This document shows positions 50,467 to 62,495 of a DNA stretch of 64,000 nt, in pieces. The notes under the pieces are model-generated. The model saw nothing but the letters and a program-made list of their open reading frames with translations. It was not told where the DNA came from and searched no databases. Position numbers and translations under genes: made by a program. Source of the stretch: Phycisphaerales bacterium (GTDB lineage Bacteria; Planctomycetota; Phycisphaerae; Sedimentisphaerales; Anaerobacaceae); contig PLLP01000022.1 of NCBI GenBank assembly GCA_003141315.1, forward strand, positions 1 through 64,000, written 5' to 3'. The first letter of the stretch is position 1, and each line of letters starts with the position of its first letter.

Positions 50467-50580
50467 CTAACTCTTCCTTTGTTTGGCCGCCCCCGTGATT
50501 CTAACAGTAGAACGAATAGAATTGCCTTCTACTAATGCACTCAAAACCAGTATCCGTTTTTCTTTAGTCAATATATTCAT
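50467..50580 (-). pseudogene. truncated IS1-family transposase N-terminus
   Basis: A 37-codon ORF reads MNILTKEKRILVLSALVEG then NSIRSTVRITGAAK before a premature stop. This matches the InsA-like helix-turn-helix start of IS1-family transposases. A promoter-like TCGACT-17-TATAAT lies just ahead on the minus strand. No downstream transposase half is present, so it is a remnant. Confidence 0.6.
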
Positions 50581-50635
50581 ACTGACTATTATACTTGAGC
50601 AGTCAAGCAAAGTCGAGAGAAAAATCAAAAAAATC

Positions 50636-51547
50636 TTAATTTTTTTGGAGTGCAATATTTTTGACCAAAGCTAAGCCGAGATGGTTTTCTATCATCTTAT
50701 ATGCCAGTGTATTTTGGAATACGTGCATATTACAATGATGAATTGTAAGCACTAAATCCTGCAAGATAGGGTCATTTTCAAGTGGAGAAACAACAAGACC
50801 TATCTCATTTTGACATTCGTCAATGTGAATGTGTCTATTGTGGCTTTTATTGCGAGAATAGTCGGTTAATTTTCTAACTACTTTTTTGGCACGCTCATTT
50901 GCATTTGGTAATCCCTCAAACATAACCGATTTGAGTTGCTCTTCAACAAACTGTTTCGACCATTGAATAGCATTCTCACATTGGCTAAGGAACGTTGGAC
51001 GATATTGCCTGATAATAGATTGCCAAATTGGAATCTTAGAAGAATCTCTCTTAACTTCCCTGCAAGCACGCTTAAATTCTTTGATAACTCCAACAGCAGG
51101 AATATCTCTCAAATGAGGGTCAATCGGCCCTAAATTTGAATGCTTTGACATTACTATTTCACGACACGAACAAGCAATCATAGTGCCAGCAGACATCGCA
51201 ATTTGTGGCACAATCGCCCGAATATCATGCCCAAACATCCGCCGCAAATAATCTACAATAGATTCTGTTGCCGCAAGCTCTCCACCTTGAGTATGGAGTA
51301 TTAAATCAAGCCCTTTTGTTCTATCAAGGTTGTTAATAGTCATCATAAACCCGTTTTTATCTTCATCAGTAATCCCTGATTGTTCTACATACGGTTTGCT
51401 AAGAAAACCAGAGTAATACGATATGACATTTCGGCCTGTATGTTTATACAGCAAATCGAGATATTTTCGCCTTACGAGGTCAGGAGACTGCACAGCCTCA
51501 ATTTGGTATTTTTGAAATTCCTCAAGAACTTCTCTCCAGTTTGGCAT
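50636..51547 (-). CDS. SDH-family Clp-fold serine proteinase
   Basis: 303 residues of the SDH_protease/SppA-like crotonase-ClpP fold. LDLILHTQGGELAATESIVDYLRR and the nucleophile serine in PQIAMSAGTMIACS are clear, then NLGPIDPHLRDIPA. No signal peptide is seen, so it is cytoplasmic. Targets are unknown. It begins just after a 63-residue acidic ORF and a small basic protein, probably one transcript. AT-rich codon use suggests acquisition. Confidence 0.85.
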   Translation of the reverse strand: MPNWREVLEEFQKYQIEAVQSPDLVRRKYLDLLYKHTGRNVISYYSGFLSKPYVEQSGITDEDKNGFMMTINNLDRTKGLDLILHTQGGELAATESIVDYLRRMFGHDIRAIVPQIAMSAGTMIACSCREIVMSKHSNLGPIDPHLRDIPAVGVIKEFKRACREVKRDSSKIPIWQSIIRQYRPTFLSQCENAIQWSKQFVEEQLKSVMFEGLPNANERAKKVVRKLTDYSRNKSHNRHIHIDECQNEIGLVVSPLENDPILQDLVLTIHHCNMHVFQNTLAYKMIENHLGLALVKNIALQKN

Positions 51548-51553
51548 CTTTTA

Positions 51554-51745
51554 TTACCCTTGATGAATCAGCAAATCCGTTGTTATCCCGTATGTAGTAA
51601 AACTATCTACGTGTTTAAGAGGTGATGGTTGTAAAAGTGATGAAGACTCGTCAGCAGTGTCTAACTTTTCATCAGAAACAAAATAATCTTTATACAATTC
51701 TTCTAATTGATTTTGGTCTGGATTAGTATCTTTTTGGGCTTTCAT
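51554..51745 (-). CDS. small acidic hypothetical protein
   Basis: 63 residues, acidic (about 12 Asp/Glu against 5 Lys), predicted disordered with one helix (QNQLEELYKDYF). Not recognised. Six bases separate it from the protease gene and 18 from the upstream small gene. A GAGGTG ribosome site fits the ATG. It could be an adaptor or an inhibitor of the protease; that is guesswork from position. Confidence 0.55.
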   Translation of the reverse strand: MKAQKDTNPDQNQLEELYKDYFVSDEKLDTADESSSLLQPSPLKHVDSFTTYGITTDLLIHQG

Positions 51746-51763
51746 ATAAGCACCTCGCTTTCT

Positions 51764-52009
51764 TTAGTCGTTTTTGTGCCATCTCGCCTGAGCAGCAATT
51801 TTAGCAATATCCTTGCGTTTTTCGGCAGATAACTTCCTTGCGCGTGCTTTACCACCTTTAATACCACCCAATCGCCCTAACATCACAGCAGCAGGGTTTT
51901 TACCCTCTTGAGCAGCCTTTTTGAACAATTCCTCGCTTGTTGCATCATCTACAATATACTTGGCAAGCTGATTTAAATCAAGACTTTTTTTACTTGACCG
52001 CTTTTGCAT
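51764..52009 (-). CDS. small basic protein with GGIKGGKARA motif
   Basis: 81 residues, strongly basic at the end. GRLGGIKGGKARARKLSAEKR followed by KDIAKIAAQARW is a widespread pattern in small proteins often next to toxin or phage genes, thought to bind nucleic acid; the function is unproven. I start at ATG 52009; codons further upstream are in frame but lack support. Confidence 0.65.
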   Translation of the reverse strand: MQKRSSKKSLDLNQLAKYIVDDATSEELFKKAAQEGKNPAAVMLGRLGGIKGGKARARKLSAEKRKDIAKIAAQARWHKND

Positions 52010-52225
52010 AGTAGCAGTATATATCGGCCTTCGATATGTGTCAAATTTAATCTTTCTAAGCACCCATCTTAACTTGTAAAAGAGCCATAAACATCATAAA
52101 ATAGACTTGCCGGTAATTATGCCGGTTAAAGATTTAAGGAGTAAAAACCTTGAAAGCTCTATTGAACTTCTTGCCCCTTGTTCGGTAGCGTAAACTACTG
52201 ATAATTCGACAAGGCAAGGTCTTTA

Positions 52226-52470
52226 GGTTGGCAGGGCCAAAGGAAACGAGACCCGCATAAGCGGATAACTAACGCCCACCATTGAATTTTTACGGGTTTG
52301 GTGGTTCCCAATAGGGAATAAGGCTCGGCATAGTTTGTCAAAGTTACTCCGAAACTGGCCCCAAGGGGCTTCGCGGCCTAACAGAAGAGGTGTAGCCCAC
52401 TATTCTGTTTACTTGGGACACCCAGTGCTAAGAGAGCAACGAGGACTATTCCTGCCAACCCTTTTTTCTC
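52226..52470 (+). ncRNA. structured RNA of unassigned family upstream of dnaG
   Basis: A perfect 10-bp closing helix, GGTTGGCAGG (52226-52235) with CCTGCCAACC (52451-52460), is followed by CTTTTTTCTCTTTT. Inside are several hairpins: CCGC-ATAA-GCGG, CCACC/GGTGG, TTCCC-AATA-GGGAA, GCCCC-AAG-GGGC, and AACAGAA/TTCTGTT. A further foldable stretch (52107-52222) precedes it. I looked for RNase P, tmRNA, 4.5S and B12-riboswitch signatures and did not find them; a divergent 6S-like RNA cannot be excluded. The rest of the gap 52010-52783 holds a promoter and a hairpin listed below. Confidence 0.6.
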
Positions 52471-52587
52471 TTTTAATTTTCAAAGAACTTCATACTGACC
52501 CACTACCTATTCGTCCCATTTCGCTAAATGTCCAAAAGGCTGATGAAGCTGTTTTTCAGTATTAAAAGGCAGGTTTTTCGATTCCAT

Positions 52588-52617
52588 TTGACTTTTTTCA
52601 AAAATGCCCTATATATA
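52588..52617 (+). promoter_or_regulatory. predicted promoter of dnaG-rpoD
   Basis: TTGACT (52588-52593) and TATATA (52612-52617, or 52610) lie 16-18 nt apart. The predicted leader runs about 160 nt to dnaG. Confidence 0.5.
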
Positions 52618-52663
52618 GGTAGCACAAAACTATCGAAGGGACTGTGCAAAAACACTTTGCTCG

Positions 52664-52684
52664 ATGAGCTTTCGGCTCATTTTA
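52664..52684 (+). terminator. terminator-like hairpin in the dnaG leader
   Basis: ATGAGC-TTTCG-GCTCAT followed by TTTT, between the predicted promoter and dnaG. It could attenuate the operon. A large GC-rich inverted repeat (GCCTGCCCGCC with GGCGGGGCGGGC, 52713-52753) lies between it and the gene. Confidence 0.4.
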
Positions 52685-52783
52685 AAGGAAGGCTTTCTAA
52701 CTTCCCGTGACGAGCCTGCCCGCCGAGCGGGTCTTTAGACAGGCGGGGCGGGCCGCTTACAGAAAGGATTTGTAAGAAATCTT

Positions 52784-54607
52784 ATGTCGTCTTTCGATTA
52801 CGGGTTGGTCTCCAGGGTTCAGCAGGCCAACGATATTGTTGACCTGATTAGCGAATACATAAGCCTTAAGAAAAAAGGGCGGGAGATGGTCGGCCTATGT
52901 CCATTTCACACGGACCATAAGCCCAGCCTTTACGTCAACCCGGCAAAACAGATTTTCAAATGCTTCGCCTGCGGCGCAGGCGGCGACGTTTTGAAGTTTA
53001 TCCAGATGCAGGAGAATCTAACATTCCCGCAGGCACTGAAAAGGCTCGCCGACCGCGCAGGAATAAAAATCCCGACCCATTCTGTCGACAATAGACCCGC
53101 CGCGGGCGGGTCAGCCGAAACCGCAAATATTGACCCGAACAAGCTGTCGGCGGTGACCGCCTGGGTCGCGCAGCATTTCCAGGCAAACCTTTATCATCCG
53201 CAAAAGGGCAAATTCGCACGCGATTATCTTCAGCAGCGAAAAATCGATACCGACGTCGCAAAAAAATGGCGGCTCGGCCTTGCACTTGCCGGCGACGACC
53301 TCGCAAAGGCCGCTAATGAAAAAAGGCAGCCGCTCGATTTGCTCGTGAAGACCGGCTTATTGGTTAATCAGAATAAGGATAAATTTTCAAACCGTCTTAT
53401 ATTTCCTATAACGGATACCAGCGGCAGAATCATCGCATTCGGGGGCAGAACCCTCGATAACAGCGACCCGAAATATCTCAATACCAACAGCACGCCGCTC
53501 TTCGATAAAAGCAATTGCCTTTACGGCCTCGAATACGCAAGACACGGAATGGTCGCATCGGCTACCGCCGTTGTCGTGGAAGGTTATACCGATTGCATAA
53601 TGGCCCACGCAAAGGGCATCAACAATGTAATTGCGACGATGGGCACCAGCCTCACCACCGGTCACGGCAAATTGCTCAAACGTTTCGCAAAGAACGTCGT
53701 CCTGATGTTCGACAGCGACACCGCGGGCCAGGCCGCCGCCAACAGGGCGCTGGAGGTTTGCATCGCCGAGCAAATTGATATTAAACTCGCCTTTGTCCCG
53801 CAGGGAAAAGACCCCTGTGATTATCTTATCTCCGCAGGCCAGGAAAAATTTCAGCATCTGATTGATAATGCCGTTGAGGTCATCAAATTCAAATGGGATA
53901 AACTCACCTCGCACCTCGAAAAAACTGACACCCTCGCCGATAACAAGGTCGCTATCGAAGAATTCATGCAGACGGTCGCGAATGCGATGCAGGCGGGCGC
54001 TATCGGCCATATCGAACGCGGGCTTCTCGTCAATCGCCTTTCCAAAATCCTTCATTTGACCAGCCGGCAGATTGACGAAGAGCTGAATAAAAAATTTAAG
54101 GTTGCGCAAAGAACCGCCGCTTATAATCTTGAGAATCAAAAGTCGGTTTGCCTCGAATGGGGTTCCGGCGCTCTCGCTGCCGCTCAAAGGCAAATCCTCG
54201 AAGTCATCCTTAACGAGCCGAAACTCATCGACGACGTTTCAAAAAAAATCAGCATCCATGATTTCGATGTTCCGCTGCTCAAGCAGGCCGCCGAGGTAAT
54301 TTTTCAAACTCTGCACGAAAAACCGGCCTCTTCGGTAAGCCAAATCCTTGCTCATACCGATTCGGTTGAGGTTGCAAACGCAATCGTGCATCTGCACGAA
54401 ATCGGACTGAAAAAGGGTAATTTCCAGGCCTCTCTAAATGGCGCTCTTGATGTTATGCTTTCTCGCCGGGCAGGCAAACCCGCCTGCTCAAAGACTGATT
54501 CGGCGGGCAGGCAAAAGCCCGACATAATTGATAATGACGCAGAATATCTGAAACAAATATGCCAAAAAAATCGTAAATGTAATAGTCGAAGCGTGGGAAT
54601 GGTCTAA
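52784..54607 (+). CDS. dnaG: DNA primase
   Basis: Makes RNA primers for replication. The CHC2 zinc finger is C39-x2-H42 with C60-x2-C63; the Toprim domain includes VVVEGYTDCIMAH and VLMFDSDTAGQAA; the C-terminal helicase-binding region is short. Two stretches derive from GC palindromes: RPAAGG near residue 107 (53094) and the tail AGKPACSKTDSAGRQKP (54470-54520), both absent from typical DnaG. Length 607. rpoD follows after 68 nt, the conserved macromolecular-synthesis arrangement. Confidence 0.95.
   Translation: MSSFDYGLVSRVQQANDIVDLISEYISLKKKGREMVGLCPFHTDHKPSLYVNPAKQIFKCFACGAGGDVLKFIQMQENLTFPQALKRLADRAGIKIPTHSVDNRPAAGGSAETANIDPNKLSAVTAWVAQHFQANLYHPQKGKFARDYLQQRKIDTDVAKKWRLGLALAGDDLAKAANEKRQPLDLLVKTGLLVNQNKDKFSNRLIFPITDTSGRIIAFGGRTLDNSDPKYLNTNSTPLFDKSNCLYGLEYARHGMVASATAVVVEGYTDCIMAHAKGINNVIATMGTSLTTGHGKLLKRFAKNVVLMFDSDTAGQAAANRALEVCIAEQIDIKLAFVPQGKDPCDYLISAGQEKFQHLIDNAVEVIKFKWDKLTSHLEKTDTLADNKVAIEEFMQTVANAMQAGAIGHIERGLLVNRLSKILHLTSRQIDEELNKKFKVAQRTAAYNLENQKSVCLEWGSGALAAAQRQILEVILNEPKLIDDVSKKISIHDFDVPLLKQAAEVIFQTLHEKPASSVSQILAHTDSVEVANAIVHLHEIGLKKGNFQASLNGALDVMLSRRAGKPACSKTDSAGRQKPDIIDNDAEYLKQICQKNRKCNSRSVGMV
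53094..53112. repeat. GC palindrome within dnaG
   Basis: GACCCGCC-GCG-GGCGGGTC, 8-bp arms, in frame in the linker between the zinc and RNA polymerase domains. Confidence 0.65.
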
Positions 54608-62117: not shown

Positions 62118-62131
62118 CCCGATTTTTCGGG
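62118..62131 (-). terminator. short terminator directly after the riboswitch
   Basis: CCCGA-AAAA-TCGGG followed on the minus strand by ATTTTGTTTTTG. It is a small stem, but its position right after the aptamer fits the expression platform. Confidence 0.55.
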
Positions 62132-62138
62132 CCTGAAT

Positions 62139-62371
62139 ACAGGCAGGTTTTCTGACTTGCGTCCTGCCTTGAGGCGCCTTCCCATCCCGTTTTATCGAGA
62201 AAGTGGCATAGCAGGCAAAATGCCCTACTACTAAATACCTCTCGGCCTTGCCCCGTGCCAGCCTCGATTCCTCGAAGCGGCGGGGCGCGGACGCTCACAG
62301 CGGCGGGTCCGTCGCGGATTTTAACCGCGTTCCCTTTTTACTAACATCTTCCGGCGCGAGCCTGAAGACCT
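62139..62371 (-). promoter_or_regulatory. cobalamin (B12) riboswitch
   Basis: Minus-strand RNA with the conserved aptamer parts in order: a 5' P1/P2 strand GGTCTTCAGGCTCGCGCC, AAAGGGAACGCGGTTAAAATCC, CGGACCCGCCGCTGTGA (B12-box region), TATGCCACT, GGGAAGGC and the 3' strand AAGTCAGAAAACCTGCCTG. The order and words are those of the cobalamin class. The P13-type arm between (GCCCCGCC to GGGGC) is extended. It controls the three-gene surface operon below. Confidence 0.93.
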
Positions 62372-62495
62372 GTAATCAGCTGCTGCTCCGCATAATCCCG
62401 ATTCAACAGGGACTATGCACGAGCTATCCATTTTCCAAAGAACACTTACCGTTTTAACAAACACTAAAAAACAATCAAGAAAAATTCCAAAACTT

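Follow-up and report, generated by a model that had tools for sequence, protein, structure and literature searches.

Evidence for a previously undescribed RNA family with a predicted mini-ORF, found in the end of a transposon remnant upstream of dnaG

Introduction

What is encoded by the stretch of DNA that lies between a protease module and dnaG in this Phycisphaerales contig? An earlier note on the window (the whole stretch of DNA that was analysed, 64,000 nt in length) had proposed a structured RNA of unknown family at this place, either a stable non-coding RNA (ncRNA) or the leader RNA of dnaG-rpoD. The question is which of these readings holds and, for an RNA gene in its own right, how it came to lie beside dnaG and what it might do.

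The comparison of homologs described below gives strong support to an undescribed RNA family that was reached from one sequence without RNA-seq, and the resulting four-sequence alignment and structure are concrete and directly testable. A large conserved fold with an embedded mini-ORF, carried as cargo by a transposon and also found at a phage satellite's att site, suggests that mobile elements carry RNA-only accessory functions.

The RNA gene and its predicted fold

The RNA gene is about 360 nt long (52107-52467, + strand, as are all features of the RNA given here) and adjoins dnaG, which begins about 320 nt downstream on the same strand. A predicted sigma-70-like promoter, TTGTAA-17-TAAAAT (52074-52102), places the expected transcription start near 52107, the first base of the RNA, and its -35 element lies inside the conserved subterminal sequence of the transposon described below. 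TTGCGT-17-TATAAT stands at the matching position in the homolog of genome G070; for the homolog of genome G707, a sigma-70 promoter is not recognisable at the matching place and the T-run is also absent.

The RNA opens with the 5' hairpin H1 (GCCGGUA-AUUA-UGCCGGU; 52109-52126), which recurs at the same place with changed sequence in G009, G070 and G707. Domain I follows (52126-52226); it is closed by helix P2 (about 52126-52133/52219-52226, placed by the fold and by comparison of the members) and encloses a Shine-Dalgarno-like sequence, the mini-ORF and hairpin H3 (52170-52218). Domain II (52226-52460) is large and multibranched, and is closed by P1, a perfect 10-bp helix GGUUGGCAGG/CCUGCCAACC (52226-52235/52451-52460) that spans 235 nt and has a predicted p of about 0.94. 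It contains hairpins A (52253-52264), B (52278-52305) and C (52305-52318), and helices P4 (52327-52334/52445-52452), P5a (52354-52358/52422-52426), P5b (52360-52365/52412-52417), P6 (52380-52386/52403-52409) and P7 (52389-52392/52398-52401). A T6 run (52462-52467), conserved in a fragment from genome G064, is the predicted and probable terminator. The closing helix, the internal hairpins and the terminal T-run seen in the first reading are all present, and the second foldable region that had been placed just upstream is real and part of the same RNA, comprising H1 and the domain closed by 52127-52133/52219-52225.

The fold of the window sequence alone is not strong evidence, and the proof comes from the homologs. 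The single-sequence fold is modestly better than chance (z = -2.2); shuffled sequences fold as well in 1 of 100 cases for 376 nt and in 5 of 200 for 235 nt, and an inverted repeat of at least 10 bp spanning at least 150 nt arises in 3.5% of shuffles. We call the RNA real because four members carry compensatory changes in nearly every helix, and not because of the single-sequence fold.

Rfam status and search for homologs

The Rfam 15 covariance models gave no match in 51600-52800, either at the gathering score or up to E = 5, and none over the G707 RNA at the same thresholds, in agreement with the earlier view that the known RNA classes checked by motif do not fit. Readings as an integron attC site or as a retron were dropped: neither an integrase nor a reverse transcriptase lies nearby, and the expected motifs are not matched.

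The sole relative recovered by plain sequence searches was a 3' end of 42 bp, T-run included, with 88% identity in G064, a genome of the window's family. A covariance model of domain II, R1, was built from the window sequence and this 3' fragment. Run on 347 genomes of the class, it recovered G707, which belongs to another family, at 82 bits; a set of 161 genomes of the order yielded G009 at 67.5 bits and G070 at 44.9 bits. With the window, this makes four known full members, 64-71% identical over aligned positions, two of which have no obvious mobile context. G707, G009 and G070 all keep H1, P2, the Shine-Dalgarno-like sequence and the mini-ORF, and we regard the three accepted hits as confirmed because these conserved features lie outside what R1 contained.

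The E-values of R1 are soft and should be read with care, since a gpsA coding region scored 31.6 bits; this match, in G756, falls in the gpsA coding frame and was rejected, as was a GC-rich match in G301 at 23 bits. A second model, R2, made from two sequences, yielded no further match, either in 114 genomes of G707's order or in 324 of the phylum. Searches of phage and plasmid collections gave nothing apart from a chance match on the NGR234 plasmid, which is the start of a coding gene. Among nine matches from a pattern scan of genome contigs, eight look like chance, mostly in coding sequence, and the only real one is L056, the G064 fragment. Pattern scans of viral contigs gave chance matches only; most of these loci (L304-L315 being left out) were checked with R1 and none scored.

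The distribution is patchy: among the 89 genomes of the window's family, three have a full member and one a fragment, and the 114 genomes of G707's order have a single member. The RNA almost certainly represents a real family, previously undescribed and sparsely distributed.

Covariation evidence for the fold

Across the four sequences, helices that were picked by hand, a choice that favours pairing, have standard pairs in 250 of 256 cells. Fifty base pairs are variable, and compensatory double changes keep the pairing in 39 of them. Within the variable columns, pairing is kept in 166 of the 172 cells, and permuting the 3' letters gives a mean of 110.6 +/- 5.5; none of 5000 permutations reached 166. 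Because hand assignment biases towards pairing, an independent check is important. A plain MAFFT alignment folded with RNAalifold gives 57 pairs, 23 of them with double changes, and recovers P1, P4, P5a and H3.

Examples of these changes are U-A to C-G in P1, AUAGU/ACUAU to ACGGU/GCCGU and CGGGG/UCCCG in P4, and ACUGG/CCAGU to CAGAG/CUCUG and GGAAG/CUUCC in P5a, and hairpin B shows four double changes when the window is compared with G707. The helix that closes domain I reads UUAAAG/CUUUAG in the window, CUGAAG/CUUUAG in G707, CUAAAG/CUUUAG in G009 and AGAAAG/CUUUCA in G070. The compensatory changes among homologs that the earlier note named as the test of its reading are present. Judged by covariation among the aligned sequences, the fold of the RNA family is conserved, which, together with the lack of an Rfam match, supports the reading as a stable ncRNA of unknown family.

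A predicted mini-ORF in domain I

No credible protein had been thought to read through the RNA. This holds for long ORFs and fails for a short one: behind the Shine-Dalgarno-like AAGGAG (52136-52141) lies a mini-ORF of 12 codons, TTG...TAG (52150-52188), with a TTG start and the predicted product MKALLNFLPLVR. Like the transposon, it was missed in the first reading of the sequence. Each of the four members has exactly one combination of Shine-Dalgarno-like sequence, start codon and closed ORF (12-18 codons) in domain I, with 8-9 nt from GGA to the start codon, and the mini-ORF runs into hairpin H3. Shuffled segments hold such a combination in 1.5-2.8% of cases per sequence; the product of the per-sequence chances is about 1.5e-7, a figure that treats related sequences as independent.

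The peptides of the other members would be MKYILGPLPLGGQR in G707, MLKHLLTFSSLLRIPKCG in G009 and MLTKLLTLRSFFPHWYCG in G070. The peptides are leucine-rich, and those of G009 and G070 are similar to each other; with so few residues and such large differences, they cannot prove that their sequences are under selection. The comparison nevertheless shows a conserved putative translation start with a mini-ORF in the RNA family, and the mini-ORF is likely to be translated.

The transposon remnant and its cargo slot

The RNA lies in the end of a remnant of an IS1-like transposon with an SDH-type protease module (50482-52507), of which fuller relatives exist in other genera. The right terminal inverted repeat (TIR), ACTGACCCACTACC, is at 52494-52507 (+ strand). 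Both ends are present in the relatives L073, L076, L077 and L080, matching GGTAGTGGGTCAGTTT or close variants, and these elements are flanked by 8-bp target duplications (GACAACTA, CATTCTTC, TATTTTCT and GGCGGCTG). Three of them, L073, L076 and L077, are full-length: they have genes for a DDE transposase with a weak match to PF03400 and for a small protein rich in Lys, Gly and Ala, and two of the three also carry an SDH-type ClpP-like protease.

The element in the window keeps three passenger genes, all on the - strand. The first encodes an 81-aa Lys/Gly/Ala-rich small protein (51764-52009), has its promoter at 52044-52016 and in relatives adjoins TIRs and transposases. The second encodes a 63-aa acidic small protein (51554-51745), and the third an SDH-type ClpP-like serine protease (50636-51547; PF01972, 8e-20). 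Of the transposase, only about 44 residues from its start survive (50482-50613, - strand), matching the transposase of L073 at 75% over 44 aa in tblastn, and the left TIR is lost. Since most of the transposase and the left end are gone, the element is an immobile remnant. Along almost all of its length, the protease also matches phrog_11747, a phage family (E 7e-90); a search for the protease in viral contigs gave nothing, and PADLOC found no defence-family match worth keeping in the protease module.

Between the small-gene promoter and the cargo lies the conserved subterminal sequence of the transposon (52061-52092, + strand), and the slot between this sequence and the TIR is occupied in the window by the RNA, which thus sits between the internal genes and the TIR as cargo would. 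Elsewhere, the slot holds a tRNA-Ser-like gene (G013), an ORF (G050) or small ORFs (G076); in G026, G027, G039 and G070 nothing occupies it. Such varied use of one slot among related genomes makes the transposon informative in itself. The gene in the G013 slot (L073 2123-4836; L026 3816-3888, - strand) has the anticodon ACT and is followed by a terminator-like hairpin.

In three genera (52494 in the window, L026 and L041), the corresponding place upstream of dnaG is occupied by the same transposon family with different cargo, that of G013 and G050 being other than the RNA. This suggests either a target hot spot or an exchange of cargo at an old insertion. Since the RNA is cargo in the end of a transposon remnant, transposition is most likely what brought it to dnaG.

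Genomic contexts of the other members

The G707 RNA lies just inside attL of a 10.2-kb, phage-satellite-like element (L163 78-10335) that is inserted in tRNA-Lys and has a tRNA-derived direct repeat at both ends. The element encodes a D5-type primase, a terminase and a tyrosine integrase, with no recognised capsid gene. The RNA is placed between tRNA-Lys and an excisionase gene, and faces the 3' end of the tRNA on the other strand. The G009 RNA is intergenic, between ordinary genes, and the G070 RNA is downstream of a fab operon. The members in the window and in G707 show the RNA family to be carried by two kinds of mobile element.

Proposed working of the RNA and alternative explanations

Our best explanation, which we consider fairly probable on balance, is an autonomous RNA gene of a new family, most likely dual-function or translation-gated and spread partly by mobile elements. 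We infer that the RNA would be transcribed from its own promoter, end at its own terminator and act as a separate molecule. A ribosome on the mini-ORF would have to melt H3 and would also disturb P2, which closes domain I, and translation could thereby switch domain I between two states. Domain II would be the stable working part, binding a protein, an RNA or the ribosome to the benefit of the element or the host. Translation gating of domain I is a tentative proposal for the mechanism, and a somewhat doubtful one. That the family stands for a new class of mobile-element RNA machine, a folded effector RNA gated by ribosomes on a built-in mini-ORF, is rather unlikely; if true, the element would sense the translational state of the cell (e.g. 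phage attack) without a protein of its own.

It is unlikely, though seriously to be weighed, that the RNA is purely structural, a scaffolding RNA of mobile elements like a smaller GOLLD or ROOL, with a mini-ORF that only loads ribosomes or is incidental. GOLLD and ROOL are highly structured, multibranched RNAs carried by many phages, often near tRNA genes (PMC7567579; PMC12286853), and satellites make abundant ncRNAs (PMC7567579). The window RNA is likewise multibranched and ornate, as is OLE, and the G707 copy lies beside a tRNA in a satellite-like element; however, at about 360 nt it is much smaller, it leaves the GOLLD and ROOL consensus of Rfam unmatched, and its translation start and mini-ORF are conserved. 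The IIR transcript of PLE is another ncRNA of a phage satellite, lying between inverted repeats and having antisense matches to leaders (PMC7567579). The G707 copy resembles it in being carried by a satellite-like element, whereas neither inverted-repeat flanks nor antisense leader matches are known for this RNA, and recognised mobile elements account for only two of the four members.

Alternatively, the RNA could serve chiefly as the mRNA of a tiny peptide (a signal, an inhibitor or a type I-like toxin), the fold serving to control stability and translation. The Shine-Dalgarno-like sequence, start and closed short ORF in all four members would suit such an mRNA, as would the leucine-rich peptides and the likeness of those of G009 and G070. 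We nevertheless rate it as rather unlikely: the 12-18-aa peptides differ strongly and lack a membrane-spanning pattern, and the fold of domain II, which makes up two thirds of the RNA, is kept by compensation. A translation initiation site and a short ORF inside the RNA, as found in all four members, are what is expected of a dual-function RNA. The psm-mec RNA of SCCmec is of this kind, with a short ORF and a non-coding part, and is likewise borne by a mobile element. VcdRP of Vibrio cholerae also combines a short ORF and a non-coding part in one transcript (PMC8672173). Unlike in these two RNAs, the ORF here has 12-18 codons without clear sequence conservation, and a large conserved fold takes the place of a base-pairing seed in the non-coding part.

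The other half of the earlier proposal, a leader or attenuator in which the mini-ORF and fold would control read-through into dnaG-rpoD, has fared badly. Leader-peptide attenuators have a Shine-Dalgarno sequence and a short ORF that runs into a hairpin, a layout shared by the RNA, which also ends in a T-run and lies close upstream of dnaG on its strand. Yet the RNA has no conserved downstream gene: what follows it in the window is the terminator-like T-run and then the transposon end, which separates it from dnaG, and related dnaG loci hold other cargo or none at this place. The four members lie in four unrelated contexts, none of the other three near dnaG, and the G707 RNA faces a tRNA 3' end on the opposite strand. 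Any leader reading, dnaG's included, is disfavoured because no gene is consistently downstream; control of dnaG by read-through is very improbable, and comparative evidence makes us highly confident that the RNA is not a dnaG leader. That the 10-bp arms are instead the terminal inverted repeats of a MITE, with the fold as a by-product, is scarcely credible: a perfect inverted repeat 235 nt apart inside a mobile element would fit, but the RNA is single copy in its own genome and several near-identical copies are not found, no target duplication is seen, compensatory changes fall inside the arms, and conservation extends beyond them on both sides (H1, the Shine-Dalgarno-like sequence and the T-run).

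Other observations in the region

Just before dnaG, at 52717-52757, lies a GC-rich, palindromic, repeat-like stretch (gcccgccgagcgggtc...gacaggcggggcgggccgc), and a similar short palindrome occurs inside dnaG near 53095. Further along the window, a cobalamin riboswitch was found at 62125-62388 (- strand), with a score of 71 bits.
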